NCBI GenBank assembly: GCA_016794585.1
Contig: JAEUJM010000026.1
Location: 127,444 to 191,443, forward strand
DNA: 64,000 bases
DNA from: Acidimicrobiales bacterium
GTDB lineage: Bacteria; Actinomycetota; Acidimicrobiia; Acidimicrobiales; DATDAH01
Direction: 5' to 3'
The notes under the pieces are model-generated. The model ran no database searches, was not told the DNA's origin, and worked only from the letters and a program-made list of their open reading frames with translations. Position numbers and translations under genes: made by a program. Numbering within the stretch: the first letter of the stretch is position 1; each line of letters starts with the position of its first letter. Positions 33,639 through 43,040 of the stretch are shown here, piece by piece.

Positions 33639-34355
33639 GTGGATACCGGCGTGGACACAAGCTCGTATACAACGCTCCCGCGGCGCGACGTGGCGTACCA
33701 GTTCCTCAAGCAGGGCCTGCTCACCGGTGCCTACCCGCCGGGGGCCCGGTTGGGCGAGGAGCGGGTCGCGGCGGAGCTCGACATGTCCCGCACCCCGGTG
33801 CGCGAGGCCTTCTCCCGCCTCCACACCGAGGGCCTGCTCGAGCGACTCCCCGACGGGGGGTTCGGGCCGACCCTGGTCGACCTGCACCTGATCCGCGAGC
33901 TCTACGAGATCCGCTTCGCCCTCGAGCGGTGCGCGCTGGGCCGGCGCCTCCCGTCGGGCGAGACGGCCCAGGACGAGGAGCAGATCCGGACCCTGCGGGC
34001 CGACTGGGCCGACCTCGAGGCGCCCGCCTCCGACGACGAGGTCGACAGTGACTTCGTCCTCCTCGACGAGGACTTCCACGAGCGCCTCGCCGCCGCCGCC
34101 GGCAACGTCGCCCTCGTCGACGAGCTCCACCGGGTCAACGAGCGCATCCGCATCGTGCGCATGCAGGACTTCCTCACCGCCGAGCGCATCGAACGGACCA
34201 TCACCCAGCACGTCGGCATCCTCGACGTCGTCCTGGCCGATGACTTCGGGACCGCGGACGACCTGCTCGTCGCCCACTTCGACGAGTCGCTGTCCGTGGT
34301 CGAGGAGCGCGCCGCCCTGGCCATCGCCCGCATGTTCAACCGGAGGCACCGCTGA
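33639..34355 (+). CDS. GntR-family (FCD/FadR subgroup) regulator
   Basis: A 238-residue GntR regulator. The winged helix is at about 15-75 ([38 protein letters not shown]), followed by an all-helical FCD ligand domain with the metal-binding pattern D-x3-H ([15 protein letters not shown]) and later His residues (TQHVGIL, HFDESL). The first GTG at 33639 is given; GTG 33651 is possible. Its stop overlaps the ATG of the ABC ATPase (TGATG), so it leads the transporter/hydrolase operon and is the likely sensor of the imported compound. A GTATAC-centred palindrome lies within its first codons. Confidence 0.9.
33663..33672. promoter_or_regulatory. Candidate GntR operator centred on GTATAC
   Basis: TCGTATACAA resembles the TTGTATACAA-type sites bound by FCD-subgroup GntR regulators. 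It overlaps codons 9-12 of the GntR gene itself, so it would act as an internal autoregulatory site, or the true transcript starts nearby. Confidence 0.35.
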
Positions 34356-35944
34356 TGTCGGACCCCGCACCCGTCGATCCCGCCGCCGTCGATCTCGCCG
34401 CCGCCGATCTCGCCGCCGCCGAGGCCCCCCTCGTCGACGCGCCACTCCTCGAGGCCCGGGGCATCACCCAGCGCTTCGGCTCGTTCGTGGCCAACGATCA
34501 CGTCGACTTCACCATCCGCACCGGCGAGGTGCATGCCCTCCTCGGCGAGAACGGGGCCGGCAAGAGCACCCTCATGAAGGTCCTCTACGGGGTGAACCAC
34601 CCGCAGGAGGGCGAGATCCTGATCCACGGCGAGCCCATCGAGCTGGGCTCGCCGGCCTCGGCCCGGTCCGCCGGCATCGGCATGGTCTTCCAGGACCTGC
34701 GTCTCGTCCCCGCACTGACGGTGGCGGAGAACGTCGAGCTGGCCTGCGGCACCGGCCGGTACAAGCGGTCCGAGGCCCGGGCCCGGGTGGCCGAGGGCGC
34801 CGAGAAGTACGGGCTCAAGGTCGAGCCCGGTGCCGTCGTGCGGGACCTGTCCATCGCCGAGCGTCAGCTCGTCGAGATCCTGCGGGTGCTCTTGATGGAC
34901 GCCAAGGTCGTGATCCTCGACGAGCCCACGAGCGCCCTGGCTCCCCAGGAGGTGGAGGCGCTGCTCGACGTGATCCGGCGGCTGCGGTCGGACGGGTTGG
35001 GCATCGCCCTCATCACCCACAAGCTGGCCGAGACCCGGGCCGTGGCCGACCGCCTGACCGTGCTGCGCCACGGCGTGATGGCGCTCTCCGACGCCCACCC
35101 CGACGACCACACCGACGCACAGCTGGTCGAGACCATGGTGGGCAGCGTCCCGCCGCCCCTGCCCGCCGAACGCGAGCCTGTCCGCCACGGCGAGCCCGCC
35201 CTTGCGGTCAGTGGCGTGAGCGCCACGTCCGTCGACGGTCGCTCGAAGATCCACGACGTCACCTTCCTCGTGCAGCCGGGCGAGCTGGTGGGCATCGCCG
35301 GCGTGTCCGGGAACGGCCAGCGCGAGCTCCTCGACGCCATCCTCGGGATGCTGCCCCTCCACAAGGGCGAGATCCACGTCGGCGGCCGCGAGATGAGCAA
35401 GTTGGGCAAGCCGGGCAAGACCCTCGGTGCGGGCGTGGTGTCCGTTCCCGAGGACCCGGTGAACGACGCCGTCGTCGGGGGCCTGGCCGTGCTCGGGCAC
35501 CTGCCCCTGAACGGACGCCCCTTCCCCAAGCGGGGCCCCCGCATCGACTGGAAGGCGGTCCGCGCCGCGGTCGAGTCCAGCGACATCGCCGAGCGCCTCA
35601 ACATGGCGCCTCTCGAGCGCGAGGTGGCCACCCTCTCGGGCGGCAACATCCAACGGGTCGTCCTCACCCGGACGTTCCTCGTCGACGACCCGACGCTGGT
35701 GGTCGTCGCCTACCCGAGCCGGGGCCTCGACGTCGCCTCGGTGCGGGCCACCCAGCAGCTCCTCCTCGACCGGCGGGCGGCCGGTGCCGGCGTGCTCATG
35801 GTGTCCGAGGACATCGACGAGCTCCTCGCGCTGGCCGACCGCATCGTCGTGCTCCACGACGGCGAGGTCGCGGGGATCGTCGATCCGTCCACGACCGACC
35901 GCCAGGCGATCGGTCGCCTCATGCTCCAAGGGGCCGCCGCATGA
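34355..35944 (+). CDS. ABC transporter ATP-binding protein, two-domain (BMP/ribose type)
   Basis: A 529-residue protein with two fused ATPase domains, as in nucleoside and sugar importers. Domain 1 is complete: Walker [17 protein letters not shown], signature [11 protein letters not shown], Walker [12 protein letters not shown]. Domain 2 has a degenerate Walker A ([14 protein letters not shown]), an intact signature [11 protein letters not shown] and an altered Walker B ([12 protein letters not shown]), so only one site should hydrolyse ATP, the usual asymmetry in this class. A short Ala/Asp repeat precedes domain 1. The ATG overlaps the GntR stop and its own stop overlaps the first permease start. 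Confidence 0.93.
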
Positions 35945-37134
35945 CCACCACGCAGGCTGATCTCGTCCCCGACCCGGCGGGCGAGCCCGGTGCCACGACC
36001 TCGTCCGGTCTGACGGTCGAGACGGCCGAGCCGGCGAGCGAGGAGCCCGGGGCGCACTGGGAGCCCGACGGCGAGGCCGCCGAGGCCGACGCCGAGGCCG
36101 CCCACTGGAGCGAGCACCACCTGCTCCGCGCCGCCGTGCGCTGGGTGCTGGTCATCGGCTCGACCATCGTCATCTACTCGGCCTTCCTGCTGGCCAAGGG
36201 AGCCGACCCCCTCGCGGTGCTCCGGTCGATGTGGGACACGGCGCTGGGCAACCCGGATGCCATCGGCGAGACCCTGATCCGCTCGACGCCGCTGCTCATG
36301 GCTGCGCTGGCCGCCGCGGTGCCCGCCCGCGCCGGCCTGTTCAACCTCGGAGGCGAGGGCCAGCTGCTCATGGGCGCCATCGGGGCGTTCCTGGTGGCCA
36401 ACCGCCTCGACGCCGGTGCGCCGAGCGTTCCCACCCTCGTCCTGATGGGCCTGGGCGGCGCCGCCATGGGCTTCCTCTGGGCGGCCCTGCCCGCCCTGCT
36501 GAAGGTGGTCACCCGCACCAACGAGGCCATCAGCAGCCTCCTGCTCAACTACATCGCCGCCCTCGTGGTGACCTGGCTCTGCTTCGAGCCCTGGAAGGAC
36601 CCGACCAGCCTCGGCCAGGCGTACAGCCGTGAGCTCGTCGACGGCGAGCGGTTCCCCGTCATCTGGGGTGCCCGTGTGCACGCCGGCATCTTCGTGGCCC
36701 TGGTCGCCGCGGTGGTCCTGTGGTGGGTGCTGCGCTCGACCACCTGGGGCTTCAAGCTGCGGGTGGTCGGGGGCAACTCGGCCGCCGCCCGCCGGGCCGG
36801 ACTGGCCGTCGGCGGCCTGTCCATCGCCGCCATTGGCCTCGGCGGCGCCCTCGCCGGGCTCGGCGGGATGATCGAGGTGGCCGGCACCGAGGGCCGGCTC
36901 CGTCCCGACCTGCTGGTGGGCATCGGCTTCATCGGCTTCCTCGCCTCGTGGCTCGGCCGTCACGACCCCCTCAAGGCGTGCCTCGCCGCCCTCCTCCTCG
37001 GCGCCATCGCCGTGGGCGGCTCGGGGCTGCGCATCACCGCCGGCCTGTCCGGTGGCGCCGTGAACATCCTCATGGCGCTCGTCCTGATCACGGTCCTCGG
37101 TTGGGGGCCCCGTCGCACCCGGAGCGCTGCCTGA
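35941..37134 (+). CDS. ABC transporter permease (BPD_transp_2)
   Basis: A 397-residue permease with an unusual hydrophilic, acidic N-terminal extension of about 60 residues (rich in Glu, Ala and Pro) before the first membrane helix at about 67-87. The core has some eight to ten helices with [20 protein letters not shown] and [15 protein letters not shown], typical of inner-membrane subunits of BMP-family nucleoside-type importers. It starts in an ATGA overlap with the ATPase and ends in a TGATG overlap with the second permease. It should pair with that permease as a heterodimer. Confidence 0.92.
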
Positions 37135-38033
37135 TGCTCGAGTCCATCCTCGTCGGCGCCGTCGCCGGCGGCACCTGCATGGTCTACGCCGGCCTCGGAG
37201 AGGTGTGCACCGAGCGCTCCGGCGTCATCAACCTCGGGACCGAGGGTTCGATGCTCTGCGGCGCCCTCACCGCCTACGCCATCGGCATCACCACCGGGAA
37301 CCCCTGGCTCGGGGTGGTGGCAGGGATGCTGGCGGGCTCGGCCCTGTCGTCGGTCCACGCCCTGCTCGTGCTCGAGCGGGGCGCCAACCAGATCGCCTCG
37401 GGCCTCGTGGTCACCTTCCTCGGCCTCGGCGTCACCGCCCTGTTCGGCCAGAACTACGTCGGCCAGGGCGTCGTGCCCCTCGAGACCTGGGACATCCCCG
37501 GCCTCTCCGAGCTGCCCTTCCTCGGGCCCGTCCTCTTCCAGCACGACCCGCTGACCTACCTGGCGTTCGCGGCCGTGCCCCTCACCTCCTGGGTGCTGTG
37601 GCGCACCCGGGCCGGCCTCGTGCTGCGGGCCGCGGGCGAGGCCCCGGAGGTCCTCGAGATCTACGGCACCTCGGCCCGCAAGGTGCGGTGGATCACCGTC
37701 CTCGTGGGCGGGGCGATGTCCGGGCTCGGCGGGGCGCAGCTGTCCACCGCCGCCACCCTCAACTGGTCCGAGGGCATGACCGTCGGCCGGGGCTTCGTGG
37801 CCGTGGCCCTCGTCATCTTCGCCGGCTGGAAGCCGCTCAACCTGGCCCTCGGCGCCTATCTCTTCGCCGGCGCCATCGCCTTCCAGCTCCAGCTCCAGGC
37901 CCGGGGTTGGGAGATCTCCCGCTACCTGCTCGAGGCCCTGCCCTACCTGCTGGTCCTCGTCGTCCTCGCCCTGCTCAGCCGCCGCCGCATCCACGGCGGC
38001 CCGGCCACCCTCGAACGGGTCTTCGACCACTAG
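37134..38033 (+). CDS. ABC transporter permease (BPD_transp_2)
   Basis: A 299-residue second permease, shorter and without a hydrophilic extension. SGVINLGTEGSMLCGALTAY matches the conserved loop of the first permease ([15 protein letters not shown]), and LRAAGEAPEVLEIYGTSARK is the EAA-like cytoplasmic loop that contacts the ATPase. Eight or nine hydrophobic helices are visible. The start overlaps the first permease stop. After it comes a 70-bp gap with AAGGAG before the binding-protein gene. Confidence 0.93.
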   Translation: MLESILVGAVAGGTCMVYAGLGEVCTERSGVINLGTEGSMLCGALTAYAIGITTGNPWLGVVAGMLAGSALSSVHALLVLERGANQIASGLVVTFLGLGVTALFGQNYVGQGVVPLETWDIPGLSELPFLGPVLFQHDPLTYLAFAAVPLTSWVLWRTRAGLVLRAAGEAPEVLEIYGTSARKVRWITVLVGGAMSGLGGAQLSTAATLNWSEGMTVGRGFVAVALVIFAGWKPLNLALGAYLFAGAIAFQLQLQARGWEISRYLLEALPYLLVLVVLALLSRRRIHGGPATLERVFDH

Positions 38034-38103: not shown

Positions 38104-39237
38104 ATGCCCAGATCCCTACGTGTCGCCGCCGTCGTGTGCGGCCTGGCGCTGCTCGCCGGCGCCTGCTCGTCGAGCAGCGACTCGTCCTCCTCCGACACGA
38201 CCGGCGGTGACGACGACGCCACCACGGTCGGGTTCATCTACGTCGGCCCCAAGGACGACTTCGGCTACAACCAGGCCGCCTACGAGGGCAGCGAGGCCAT
38301 GGCCGAGACGGTCGACGGCGTCGAGCTGCTCCAGGCCGAGAACGTCCCAGAGACCGCCGAGTCCGAGCAGGTCATGCAGGACATGATCGACCAGGGCGCC
38401 GAGATCATCTTCGCCACCAGCTACGGGCACCTCGAGTTCGCCCAGAACGTGGCCGAGCGCAACCCCGACGTGACCTTCGTGCACCAGGGTGGCCTCGAGG
38501 GCGACAACCAGCTCGACAACGTGGGCACGTACTTCGGCACCGTGTACGAGCCGGTGTACCTGGCGGGCATCGCGGCCGGTGAAAGCACCGAGACCGACAC
38601 GCTCGGCTACATCTACGCCTTCCCCATCCCCCAGACGCTGGCCAACATCAACGCCTTCACCCTGGGCGCCCAGTCGGTCAACCCCGACGCCGAGGTCATC
38701 ACCATCTCCACCGGGAGCTGGTGCGACCCCGCCGTGCAGGCCGAGGCCGTCGCCTCGCTGCTCGACCAGGACGTCGACGTGATCAGCCAGCACCAGGACT
38801 GCACCAAGACCATCATCGAGGCCACCGAGGCCGCCGGCGCCATGACCGTCGGCTACCACTACGACGCCTCCGAGCTCGCCCCCGAGGGCTGGGTGACCGG
38901 CTCCGAGTGGGACTGGGGCCCGCTCTACAGCGACATCGTCGAGACCATCCAGGCCGGCGAGTTCGCCGAGTCGGACTACAACGGCGACTTCCGGGTCGGC
39001 CTGCAGACCGGTGACAACCCGTTCGTCCAGTCGCCCTTCGGCACGATGGTCTCCGAGGAGACCATCGCCCTCATCGAAGAGGCCAAGCAGCGCTTCATCG
39101 ACGGCGGCTCGCCCTTCGAGGGCGTGGTGAAGAACCAGGACGGCGAGGTCGTCTACGACGAGGGCGAGCAGCCCACCTACGACGAGGTCGAGCAGATGGA
39201 CTTCTTCGTCGAGGGCGTCACCGGGACGATCGGCTAG
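38104..39237 (+). CDS. BMP-family substrate-binding lipoprotein
   Basis: A 377-residue ABC-importer binding protein. The signal peptide ends in the lipobox LLAGAC with Cys21, followed by a Ser/Asp/Thr linker. The BMP (Med/PnrA-like) domain follows: VGFIYVGPKDDFGYNQAAYE, GAEIIFATSYGHLEFA, TDTLGYIYAFPIPQTLANIN and SQHQDCTKTIIEATEAAG. Classical members bind nucleosides or other purine-like compounds. It completes a GntR-ATPase-permease-permease-BMP set. The downstream biuret and allophanate hydrolases suggest the ligand here is a ureide or triazine breakdown product, but this is inference. Confidence 0.93.
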   Translation: MPRSLRVAAVVCGLALLAGACSSSSDSSSSDTTGGDDDATTVGFIYVGPKDDFGYNQAAYEGSEAMAETVDGVELLQAENVPETAESEQVMQDMIDQGAEIIFATSYGHLEFAQNVAERNPDVTFVHQGGLEGDNQLDNVGTYFGTVYEPVYLAGIAAGESTETDTLGYIYAFPIPQTLANINAFTLGAQSVNPDAEVITISTGSWCDPAVQAEAVASLLDQDVDVISQHQDCTKTIIEATEAAGAMTVGYHYDASELAPEGWVTGSEWDWGPLYSDIVETIQAGEFAESDYNGDFRVGLQTGDNPFVQSPFGTMVSEETIALIEEAKQRFIDGGSPFEGVVKNQDGEVVYDEGEQPTYDEVEQMDFFVEGVTGTIG

Positions 39238-39245
39238 CACGTCCC

Positions 39246-40007
39246 GTGCCGGCCACCATCCACCTCGATCGTGGCGAGGGCCCCGGCGTCGTGCTGCTGC
39301 ACGGCGTCGGGGCCGGCCCCGCCACGTTCGCCACGGTCGCCGACGACCTGGCGCACGACCACCACGTGCTGGTGGTGGAGCGTCCGGTCGGCGGCCGGGG
39401 GCACGGCGAGGCCGGCGACCTCGCCGAGCAGGTGGAGCAGGTGGTCGCCCTCCTCAGCCAGGAGCGGGCGGTCGGAGTGGCGGTGGTCGGCGTGAGCGGT
39501 GGGGCAACCCTCGCCCTCGACCTGGCCATCCGCCATCCCGGCGTGGCCACCGGCCTGGTGGTGCACGAGCCCCTGCTCGGTCACCAGGCCCCGACCCTGC
39601 ACCGTCGCTTCGCCGAGGCGGCGGCGCAGGCCGCCGCCGGCGACGACGCCGCACTCGCCGTGGTGCGGTCGGTGATGGGGGAGCCCGCGTGGGCCGCCCT
39701 CGATCCGGCCGTGCGGGCGGACGCGACCGCCGGCGCCGCCCGCTGGCGGGCGGAGATCCCCCAGTTCGCCGCCTTCGACCCGAGCCAGGACGACCTTCGG
39801 GGCCTGGCCGGCCTTCCCATCCTCTGCACCGTCGGCGCCGCCAGCGGCCCCGAGCGCCACGCCGCCGCGGCCGCGCTGGCCCGACTCGCCGGGGCCGAGG
39901 TGGCCGTCGTCGCCGGCGCCGGCAACGCGGTCCAACTCGACGCCCCCCACGCTTTCGCACAGCTCGTGCGCACGTGGCTGGCCCTTCCCGCCGGAGCCCG
40001 ATCGTGA
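39246..40007 (+). CDS. Alpha/beta-hydrolase fold protein with altered catalytic His
   Basis: A 253-residue alpha/beta-hydrolase-fold protein. The oxyanion strand VVLLHGVGAGPATF and the nucleophile elbow VVGVSGGATLALDLA are intact. Where such proteins normally carry the catalytic His (GAGH-x-VQLDAP), this one reads GAGNAVQLDAP, so His is replaced by Asn; a His seven residues later (APHAF) is not in the usual place. The acid position, TVGAASGPERH, also lacks Asp/Glu. It may be inactive or use a rearranged triad. It starts at GTG 39246, eight bases after the BMP gene, and overlaps the next gene by GTGA. Confidence 0.75.
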   Translation: MPATIHLDRGEGPGVVLLHGVGAGPATFATVADDLAHDHHVLVVERPVGGRGHGEAGDLAEQVEQVVALLSQERAVGVAVVGVSGGATLALDLAIRHPGVATGLVVHEPLLGHQAPTLHRRFAEAAAQAAAGDDAALAVVRSVMGEPAWAALDPAVRADATAGAARWRAEIPQFAAFDPSQDDLRGLAGLPILCTVGAASGPERHAAAAALARLAGAEVAVVAGAGNAVQLDAPHAFAQLVRTWLALPAGARS

Positions 40008-40624
40008 CGACCCACCCCATGGCCGCCAACCCCATGACCACCACCCCGCCCCCCGTGGGCGGCCCCGACGCCGGCGCCACGTTCGTGGCCGGCACCGAGC
40101 CGTATCCCTGGCCCTACGACGGTGCGCTGGCGCCCGGGCACCTCGCCCTCGTCCTCGCCGGCTGGGACGACAGCTGGTCGACCCGGGCCCACGACCCCGC
40201 CGCGGCGCGGGCCGCCTGCCTCGAGCTGGCGCTCGCGGTCGAGGCCTACGGCGGCCTCGTCCTCTCGGTCGCCCACGGGCCTGCGTCCGACCCGTCGAGC
40301 GGGCCGGCCCTGCCCGTCGAGGCCATCGCCGTCGTGGCGGCCGGAGTCGACGCGTTCCACGGCAGCCCGCTCGACGCCCTGCTCCGCCGGGCCGGGCGCA
40401 CCCATCTGCTCGTCGCCGGGTTCGGCCTCGAGGGCCCCGTGCACTCGACCCTGCGGTCGGCCAACGACCGGGGGTACGAGTGCCTGCTCGTCACCGACGC
40501 CTCCGCTCCACTCGTGCCCGAGCTGGCCGCGCCCGCCGCACACACCGTGACCATGTCCGGCGGCATCTTCGGCGCCGTCGGCTCCGCCGCCGCCGTCCTC
40601 GCCGCCCTCGACCCTCCCCGCTGA
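40004..40624 (+). CDS. Isochorismatase-fold pseudoenzyme, paralogue of the adjacent biuret-hydrolase-like protein
   Basis: A 206-residue shortened paralogue of the next gene. Shared segments are PYPWPYDGAL at the start, then [20 protein letters not shown] and MSGGIFGAVGSAAAVLAALD. All three catalytic positions of the cysteine-hydrolase triad are changed: the Asp of NIDWQTDF becomes Gly (LAGWDDSW), the Lys of PGKGAF becomes Val (AGVDAF), and the Cys of TTDVCVHTT becomes Pro (LEGPVHST). The middle region with the substrate loop is also shortened. The fold is kept and the frame is open, so this is a maintained non-catalytic protein rather than a decaying gene. The start is GTG 40004 in a GTGA overlap; ATG 40019 is possible. 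Confidence 0.8.
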   Translation: MTTHPMAANPMTTTPPPVGGPDAGATFVAGTEPYPWPYDGALAPGHLALVLAGWDDSWSTRAHDPAAARAACLELALAVEAYGGLVLSVAHGPASDPSSGPALPVEAIAVVAAGVDAFHGSPLDALLRRAGRTHLLVAGFGLEGPVHSTLRSANDRGYECLLVTDASAPLVPELAAPAAHTVTMSGGIFGAVGSAAAVLAALDPPR

Positions 40625-40651
40625 CCGTCCCGACCCGCCAAGGAGCGACCC

Positions 40652-41356
40652 ATGCCCACCTTCGGACCCATCGACGCCCGCCCGTACGCCTGGCCGTACG
40701 ACGGGGCCATCGACCCGTCCACCACGGCCCTCGTCAACATCGACTGGCAGACGGACTTCTGCGGTCCGGGCGGCTACGTGGACGCGATGGGCTACGACCT
40801 GAACCTGACGCGGGCCGGCCTGGCCCCGACGATGGAGGTGCTGGCCGCGTGCCGGGCCGTGGGCATGCTCGTGATCCACACGCGTGAGGGCCATCTCCCG
40901 GACCTCACCGATTGCCCGCCCAACAAGCTCTGGCGCTCGCAGCGCATCGGCGCGGGCATCGGCGATGCCGGCCCCTGCGGACGCATCCTGGTGCGCGGTG
41001 AGCCAGGCTGGGACATCGTCCCCGAGGTGTACCCGGTCGAGGGCGAGGTGGTCATCGACAAGCCGGGCAAGGGGGCCTTCTACGCCACCGAGCTCGACCT
41101 CGTGCTGCGCACCAAGGGCATCACCCACATCATCCTCACGGGGATCACCACCGACGTCTGCGTGCACACGACGATGCGCGAGGCCAACGACCGCGGCTAC
41201 GAGTGCCTGCTGCTCGAGGACTGCACCGGGGCCACCGACGTCGGCAACTACGAAGCGGCGCTGCACATGGTGACCATGCAGGGCGGGGTGTTCGGGGCCG
41301 TGGCCCGATCGAGCGCCCTGCTGGCCGCGCTCGACGCCACCGCGCCCGTTGGCTGA
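40652..41356 (+). CDS. biuH: Isochorismatase-family cysteine hydrolase, probable biuret hydrolase
   Basis: A 234-residue cysteine hydrolase of the isochorismatase fold. The triad is complete: Asp31 in [15 protein letters not shown], Lys140 in [11 protein letters not shown] and Cys170 in [44 protein letters not shown] and [14 protein letters not shown] are the pattern of biuret hydrolases, which convert biuret to allophanate and ammonia. It is directly followed by an allophanate hydrolase gene overlapping by 8 bases, the expected next step, which supports the call. A related ureidoacrylate- or triuret-type activity is the main alternative. AAGGAG precedes the ATG. Confidence 0.78.
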
Positions 41357-43040
41357 GCACGCCGCCGCGGCCGCGCTCGACGCCGGGGTCGCGGGTCTCG
41401 CCGCGGCCTACGGACTGGGGCTCGACCCGGTGACGGTGGTCGAGGAGGTCCTCGCCCGCCTCGACGCCTCTGATGATCCGGCGGTTTGGATCGACGTGGA
41501 GCCGGCCGACGCGCTGCTGCTCGCAGCGAAGGAGCTGACGGCCACGCCGCCGGAGGCCCGGGGCCCCCTCTGGGGGGTGCCCTTCGCGGTCAAGGACAAC
41601 ATCGACGTGGCGGGCCGGGTCACCACGGCGGGGCTCCCCGGGGCGGCCTACCCCGCGGAGGCGACCGCCATTGCGGTGGAGCGCCTCCTCGCCGCCGGGG
41701 CGCTGTACGTGGGCAAGACCAACCTGGACCAGTTGGCCACGGGCCTCGTCGGCACCCGATCCCCCTACGGGACCCCCCGCAACCCCTTCGACCCCACCCT
41801 CGCGCCCGGCGGTTCGTCGTCGGGCTCGGCCGTGGCCGTCGCCACCCGCCAGGTGGCCTTCGCCCTCGGGACCGACACCGCTGGCTCGGGGCGGGTGCCC
41901 GCCGCGCTCTGCGGGATCGTGGGGGTGAAGGGCGCCCCCGGTGCGGTGCCGACCGACGGGGTCGTCCCGGCCAGCCCGACCATCGACTGCGTCTCCACCT
42001 TCGCCCGCTCCGTGGCCGACGGCCTGCTCGTGGAGTCGGCGATGGCCGCCACACCGTGGCCGGTGGCCCAGGGACCCTTCCGGGCGGCGGTGGCGGACGG
42101 CGTGTCGATGGAGAGAGTGGCGCTCGCAGCGGCGGGCCACGAGGTGCTCACCGTCGATCTCGCCCCGTTCCACGAGGCGGGCGACCTCCTCTACGGCGGG
42201 CCATGGCTGGCCGACCGGACGGCGGCGCTGCGCTCGACTCTGGCCGCCGTGCCCGAGGGCCTCGTGGACGTGGTGCGCACGGTGGTCGCCGGTGGGGAGG
42301 CGTACACGGGCACCGAGGTGTTCGGCGCCGTGGAACGTCTCGCCGCCCTCCGTCGCTCGCTCGCGGCGTGGTGGGACGACGTCGACGTGCTCGTCGTGCC
42401 CACGGTGCCGGCCGTCCCCTCCCTCGCCGAGGTCGCCGCCGATCCGATCGGTGTCAACGCCCGGCTCGGGCGCAACACCACCTTCGCCAACCTCCTGGGT
42501 CTCTGTGCCATCACCGTGCCCGCGGCCGACGGGCCCGGCGGGGTCACCGTGCTCGCGCCGGCGGCGGGGGCCGGGGCGGTGGCGGCGATCGCCGGTGCGC
42601 TGCGCGGCGAGGCGCTCGAGCCCGGGCCCCTCGGCGCGGGTGGGCGGGTGCACCTCGCGGTCGTCGGCGCCCATCTGCGGGGTCAGCCCCTCAACCACCA
42701 GCTGGTCGACCGCGGCGGCGTCCTGGTGGCCACGGCCGCCACCGCCCCGTGCTACCGGCTCTACCACCTGCGGGGCGGCCCGCCCGAGCGTCCCGCCCTC
42801 GAACGCGTGGGCCTCAGTGGTCGCGCCATCGAGGTCGAGGTCTGGTCGCTCGACGCCGCCGCCTTCGGGGAAGTCGTGGCCCTGGTGGCGCCGCCCCTCG
42901 GCATCGGATCGGTCGAGCTCGACGGCGGCCGCTGGGTCAAGGGCTTCATCTGCGAGACCCACGGCCTCGCCGACGCCACCGACATCACCGCCAACGGCAG
43001 CTGGCGGCGCTACCTGCGGGGACGTGGCGGCGACGTGTGA
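41349..43040 (+). CDS. atzF: Allophanate hydrolase (AtzF type)
   Basis: A 563-residue amidase-signature enzyme with a C-terminal extra domain. The Ser-cisSer-Lys triad is Lys82 ([10 protein letters not shown]), Ser156 ([12 protein letters not shown]) and Ser180 ([11 protein letters not shown]). The C-terminal domain, from about residue 440, has [31 protein letters not shown] and [18 protein letters not shown], as in AtzF and the hydrolase part of urea amidolyase. Allophanate goes to ammonia and CO2. The best start is TTG 41349, inside the end of the preceding gene, so the two should be translated together. A hairpin follows at 43046. Confidence 0.9.

Follow-up and report, generated by a model that had tools for sequence, protein, structure and literature searches.

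Why should an intact gene for biuret hydrolase be directly preceded by a second gene of the same fold, whose product has no catalytic site? The question is raised by the window, i.e., the whole analysed stretch of 64,000 nucleotides from a contig of an Acidimicrobiales bacterium. The first of the two genes encodes a protein of 206 aa, designated here as P (40004–40624, on the + strand, like all other features of the window described below), and the second encodes the biuret amidohydrolase BiuH (40652–41356). The earlier note on this DNA described P as a catalytically dead paralogue, kept in the operon possibly as a regulatory or structural subunit, a substrate sensor or a scaffold.

The P frame is open, its GTG start lies within the GTGA which it shares with the alpha/beta-hydrolase gene ahead of it (39246–40007), and 27 bp separate its end from the BiuH start at 40652. 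These features are present as the earlier note gave them, and the blocks which it saw in both proteins (PYPWPYDG, GGIFGAV and others) are indeed shared. P is 31% identical to the adjacent BiuH (E 2e-27, single comparison). It matches the Pfam Isochorismatase family (PF00857) with E 1.8e-12 and 48.1 bits, against a curated cut-off of 27, and scores 87.2 bits with the NCBIfam BiuH model NF050097, under the equivalog cut-off of 370. The AlphaFold2 model of P (pLDDT 90.9, pTM 0.84) has a Rossmann-like fold with a parallel sheet, and its closest PDB structure is BiuH (Z 26.0, rmsd 2.1 over 181 residues). The start codon of P is uncertain: most homologues start about 5–20 residues ahead of PYPWPYDG, so residues 1–25 of the window protein may go untranslated.

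The catalytic triad of the BiuH of R. leguminosarum consists of Asp36, Lys142 and Cys175 (PMC5806882). In the alignment to this enzyme, the three positions are occupied in P by Gly53, Ala112 and Pro145. The replacement of Asp by Gly and of Cys by Pro, as first noticed, is thus correct; the catalytic Lys aligns with Ala112 and not with Val115, the residue named originally. The counterpart of the latter in BiuH is Lys145, another lysine, which binds the substrate and is not the catalytic one. P is also shortened, lacking a loop of 14 residues and most of the substrate lid (about 79–127 of BiuH). Of the three helices at the BiuH interface, alpha2 is missing as well, so a P-BiuH pair cannot exactly copy the homodimer. 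The presence of an intact isochorismatase-fold paralogue without the catalytic Asp, Lys or Cys next to BiuH is therefore confirmed.

The loss of the site is a property of the whole family. None of the P proteins that extend over the Asp and Lys columns has the catalytic residue there, and the two columns vary freely; no other conserved Cys/Asp/Lys set was found in the active site. The column of the nucleophile holds Pro, Thr, Gly, Ser, Ala or Leu in 27/32 proteins and Cys in the remaining 5/32 (those of L005, L036, L038, L040 and L052), where it stays despite the loss of Asp and Lys. Near the old nucleophile loop, Glu143 (40430–40432) is invariant in P and aligned with the Asp of the BiuH TTDVC motif. 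P lacks the Asp-Lys-Cys triad of a cysteine hydrolase or BiuH. Neither is it a TrtA (triuret hydrolase), as the triad is absent and Ser185 replaces the trans-acting Gln202. The reading of P as a degenerate TrtA was also considered and ruled out, because BiuH is the better match to P in both score and superposition, and the TrtA sequences branch as a clade of their own.

In the window, the operon of P comprises a GntR/FCD-family regulator (33639–34355; PF00392, PF07729), followed by an ABC ATP-binding protein (34355–35944, identified as an ORF), ABC permease 1 (35941–37134) and permease 2 (37026–38033), all in conserved gene order, and by a BMP-family (PnrA-like) ABC substrate-binding protein (38104–39237; PF02608, E 3.7e-42), which is conserved upstream of P in other loci. 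Some P operons lack the alpha/beta-hydrolase gene that stands here between the transporter and P. BiuH has the intact triad D31/K137/C170, corresponding to Asp36/Lys142/Cys175 of R. leguminosarum BiuH, together with Q210 (NF050097, 415.7 bits, cut-off 370; PDB 6xjm, E 5e-119), and a Shine-Dalgarno-like AAGGAG (40640–40645) lies 6 nt ahead of its start. The BiuH stop is overlapped by the start of an allophanate hydrolase of the AtzF type with an AH_C domain (41349–43040; TIGR02713, 548.8 bits, cut-off 511). Where the contig is long enough, the same order is found in the other loci: GntR, ABC ATPase, two permeases, BMP binding protein, in some of them the alpha/beta-hydrolase, P, BiuH and an amidase. 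The last gene is an allophanate hydrolase or another amidase, and the GntR gene is relocated in a few loci. An example of such a variation is L032:7325–8797, where BiuH is followed by an AtzE-like amidase and not a full allophanate hydrolase (AtzF match of about 110 bits), likewise in some other P operons. The profile of cyanuric acid hydrolase (PF09663) has no match in the window genome, nor in any control genome, so the enzyme may still be encoded there.

The search for the pair in other genomes, which the earlier note proposed, gave 36 P-BiuH pairs, carried by 35 genomes of Actinomycetota, including Acidimicrobiia, Cellulomonas, Demequinaceae, Microbacterium, Microbispora and MAGs. Cellulomonas fimi and Microbispora are carriers available in culture. 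The pairs comprise 32 loci, with the window among them, from a scan of a genome collection and searches of relatives, plus L131–L133 and L136 from later searches. P stands directly upstream of BiuH in every pair, and many loci show abutting or overlapping start and stop codons. Among 396 genomes drawn from the whole phylum, P occurs in 3, each time beside BiuH, and BiuH occurs without P in other genomes. A plasmid search for P returned only distant hydrolases of <60% identity, none covering 80% of the query. In the tree, all P sequences form one clade with a support of 100/100.

No frameshifts or internal stops are found among the full-length members of the P family, and 17 columns are invariant in the 33-row alignment, which does not fit absent, frameshifted or randomly diverged homologues. 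The dN/dS of close pairs is 0.18–0.49 for P and 0.03–0.16 for BiuH; judged by these ratios, P is under purifying selection, weaker than that acting on BiuH. The mean pairwise difference is 0.58 for P versus 0.22 for BiuH. The mirror-tree correlation between P and BiuH is 0.57 (partial correlation 0.39 given the binding protein), which weakly favours a coupling of the two. The suggestion that P is a pseudoenzyme kept as a subunit is supported by its intact state beside BiuH in 35 genomes and by these ratios. The distribution of conservation along the chain is uneven. Around the lost Asp and Lys and in the loop and lid regions, the column entropy is 1.8–2.8 bits, and helix alpha5 is moderately conserved with 1.88 bits, while helix alpha4 reaches 0.45 bits and the segment aligned with 215–222 of BiuH has a mean of 0.13 bits, matching the low value in BiuH. 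As estimated from the alignment, conservation in P is concentrated where BiuH dimerises, i.e., in helix alpha4 and the 215–222 segment.

The last segment contains the residue which is central to the interpretation. According to the crystal structures of BiuH and of TrtA, the partner subunit contributes a glutamine (Gln215 in BiuH, Q202 in TrtA), which completes the active site and grips the far end of the substrate (PMC5806882, PMC7948467). With the exchange Gln215Ala in BiuH, the KM rises from 79 to 2073 uM for biuret, and the choice between biuret and triuret is attributed to where Q202 lies (PMC5806882, PMC7948467). TrtA itself is a paralogue found with biuH (PMC7948467). In P, the residue aligned with Gln215 of R. 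leguminosarum BiuH is Ser185, the first residue of the invariant segment Ser185-Gly-Gly-Ile-Phe-Gly-Ala191 (codons at 40556–40576). The column holds Ser in 32/32 P proteins, Gln in 31/31 partner BiuHs and Gln in 119/121 of the BiuH/TrtA homologues in hand. Ile at the 218 position was considered as a TrtA-like mark and dropped, as some solo BiuHs also have it.

Both exceptions to the glutamine column (INTERMEDIATES) are the first copies of tandem BiuH pairs, L098 and L068, located in the same BMP operon. The first copy of L098:5920–7304 (Rokuibacteriota) has Ser at the trans position and keeps Asp, Lys and Cys, while that of L068:5923–7368 (Candidatus Manganitrophus, Nitrospirota) has Ser, keeps Asp and Lys, and has Ala in place of Cys. 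The motif is MSGGIFGAV in the first copies and MQGGVFGxV in the second ones. It should be considered that the second BiuH of L068 is split across frames in the MAG assembly, possibly by sequencing error, and that L098 has masked stretches. In the tree, both first copies group with P and apart from all Gln-type enzymes (92/77), a provisional placement in view of the long branches, including the one leading to P. The two copies are apparent intermediates toward the P family. Since Ser is present in a copy with an intact triad (L098) and in one that has lost only Cys (L068), the swap from Gln to Ser probably predates the loss of catalysis. The simplest story would be a duplication, after which the upstream copy exchanged its Gln for Ser and then lost its catalytic residues, with Ser retained throughout.

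The separation of the two genes is removed altogether in one family. In 5/5 pairs found in the bacterial family of L034, L045 and L051 (L034, L045, L051, L131 and L136), P, a linker and BiuH form a single in-frame chain; all five fusions come from this one family, and that of L051 is partial at the 5′ end. The linkers span 40–47 codons with 0 in-frame stops, compared to 2–5 stops in each of the two other frames. The chance of a stop-free linker estimated by shuffling is 0.04–0.18 per linker, and the five values cannot be simply multiplied because the linkers are related. The Shine-Dalgarno sequence and the ATG of BiuH are retained inside the fused frames, so the fused genes may yield both the long P-BiuH chain and free BiuH, and the cell is not bound to the fused form. 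One genome (G446) carries two P-BiuH fusions (L045/L134 and L131). The natural fusion is the strongest sequence evidence that the neighbours form one working complex.

How could a dead protein be useful in such a complex? The answer preferred here, and considered rather probable, is that P is a non-catalytic subunit of BiuH, which would lend a serine in trans and so change the specificity of the enzyme. P would be made beside BiuH and bind it by the surface which BiuH uses for dimerisation. Within a homodimer of BiuH, the Gln215 of each subunit enters the site of the other and grips biuret at its far end. When P takes the place of one BiuH, it would insert the invariant Ser185 of the SGGIFGA segment into the active site of the remaining BiuH, and the dead pocket of P would receive the glutamine of that BiuH. 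As P has no live pocket, such a pair would work only at the site of BiuH, completed by serine. The complex would then have an altered substrate preference or affinity, with any BiuH-BiuH pairs keeping the ordinary Gln-type site for biuret. The role of a scaffold alone gives no reason for an invariant Ser; with the sole live pocket completed by it, selection seems to keep a Ser-type site. Modelling of the window pair as a single chain, with the TGA of P read as Trp into BiuH (33 rows, 8 of them on the BiuH half), gave pLDDT 82.1 and pTM 0.63, with a poorly modelled lid and domains not fixed relative to each other. A mixed alignment of 56 rows was discarded, as the P rows in it were all placed on the half of BiuH. 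The loop with the conserved Ser could instead serve the fold of P itself or a P-P dimer.

Other explanations of the same evidence have to be weighed. P may be a regulatory or stabilising subunit, which activates, inhibits, solubilises or caps BiuH without forming a Ser-type site, and this possibility deserves attention as a less likely one. Precedents of this kind are well described. Trypanosomatid prozymes of AdoMetDC and deoxyhypusine synthase are dead paralogues with which the active enzyme has to form a heteromer (PMC5201418, PMC3663545). AtzG is a non-catalytic obligate partner of the 1-carboxybiuret hydrolase AtzE, needed for its solubility (PMC6219798), and in the metformin hydrolase MetCaCb, a dead paralogue (34% identical) caps the site of the active subunit in a proven heterohexamer (PMC11271267). 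The adjacent, partly overlapping genes and the fusions would suit any obligate partner; however, regulation or stabilisation alone leaves unexplained why Ser is invariant at exactly the position of the residue that BiuH donates, and why the Ser-type copy of L098 has an intact triad. From the roles listed originally, the regulatory or structural subunit stands and is narrowed by the fusions and the invariant Ser to one acting in trans, while the substrate sensor and the scaffold received no specific support.

The remaining explanations place P outside the enzyme or deny it the role of a partner. An action apart from BiuH, as a ligand-binding sensor or as a partner of the transporter or the regulator, could be read from the intact fold and from the position of P directly after the BMP binding protein or the alpha/beta-hydrolase. 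It is nevertheless improbable, as P is fused to BiuH and not to the transporter or GntR, its pocket residues vary among the P proteins, and the same operon exists without P, e.g., in L079 and L102. Even less credit is given to a catalytic P that would use another chemistry: a Cys does remain in five proteins and the invariant Glu143 is next to the nucleophile position, but Asp and Lys are gone in all, Cys is replaced in most, and the site offers no conserved alternative nucleophile. The faster evolution compared to BiuH might suggest a decaying pseudogene without function, the least credible of these explanations in view of the undamaged full-length members, the dN/dS well under 1 and a single origin with a spread across several families.

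If P is a subunit that lends Ser to BiuH, as preferred above, the substrate of the mixed site may be looked for in the distribution of TrtA, which was not found in any of the 35 P genomes. Actinobacterial operons of the same type without P are in genomes with TrtA in 5/5 cases (L007, L008/L097, L064, L079 and L102). Within the BMP-BiuH operon type, the mutual exclusion of P and TrtA has a Fisher p of 1.5e-6, which is only indicative because the genomes are related. The exclusion as a general rule of BiuH genomes was weakened, as random BiuH genomes without P and without the operon had TrtA in 1/5 cases, and it is thus claimed only within the BMP operon type. As serine is shorter than glutamine, a longer substrate could fit into the site; triuret comes to mind first, and other substituted biurets are equally possible. 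In a less likely extension of this reading, one BiuH would serve two substrates depending on its partner: paired with itself (Gln), it would act on biuret, and paired with P (Ser), on another compound that is probably longer, e.g., triuret. The dead subunit would then stand in for TrtA, a whole second enzyme.

The origin of dead-paralogue subunits is seldom visible. Here, its apparent stages are legible in living genomes, from an intact triad with only the donated residue changed, through the loss of the nucleophile and then of the whole site, but never of the donated residue, to gene fusions. If the proposed role is confirmed, specificity would be switched by changing which subunit lends the residue. 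P would add an unrecognised component to the recycling of biuret and triuret nitrogen in its carriers, soil and water actinobacteria, which is relevant to the impurities of urea fertilisers and the breakdown of s-triazines. Annotation pipelines may label proteins of this type as cysteine hydrolases.

Among the known systems, BiuH (PDB 6AZO/6AZQ, 6XJM; NF050097) is the nearest to P, with the same fold (Z 25–26), the N-terminal block beginning with PYx, the GGxFGAV block and the dimer helix alpha4. P differs from it by the lack of the triad, substrate loop and lid, by Ser in place of Gln215 and by a score of 87 bits versus the cut-off of 370. TrtA (PDB 6XIX/6XJE) belongs to the same superfamily, but it is active and keeps its Gln, and P is nearer to BiuH. 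AtzG acts in the same metabolic pathway; unlike P, it is GatC-related and not paralogous to its enzyme. The prozymes of trypanosomatids are eukaryotic and allosteric, and they are not known to involve a swap of a trans-donated substrate residue. The arrangement of MetCaCb resembles that of P and BiuH, with adjacent duplicate genes of one fold, a role in the catabolism of nitrogen compounds and a dead paralogue conserved beside the active one; however, MetCaCb has the ureohydrolase (arginase) fold with Ni, whereas P and BiuH have the isochorismatase fold and their heteromer is a predicted one. For isochorismatase-like hydrolases, no described case of a dead-paralogue subunit was found in the open-licence literature, in agreement with the initial statement that no such partner of a biuret hydrolase had been described. 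It is established that dead paralogues serve as subunits, as in MetCaCb and the prozymes, and that the non-paralogous AtzG does so in the same pathway. What appears to be new is a dead partner subunit for biuret hydrolase, which would lend a changed substrate residue in trans.
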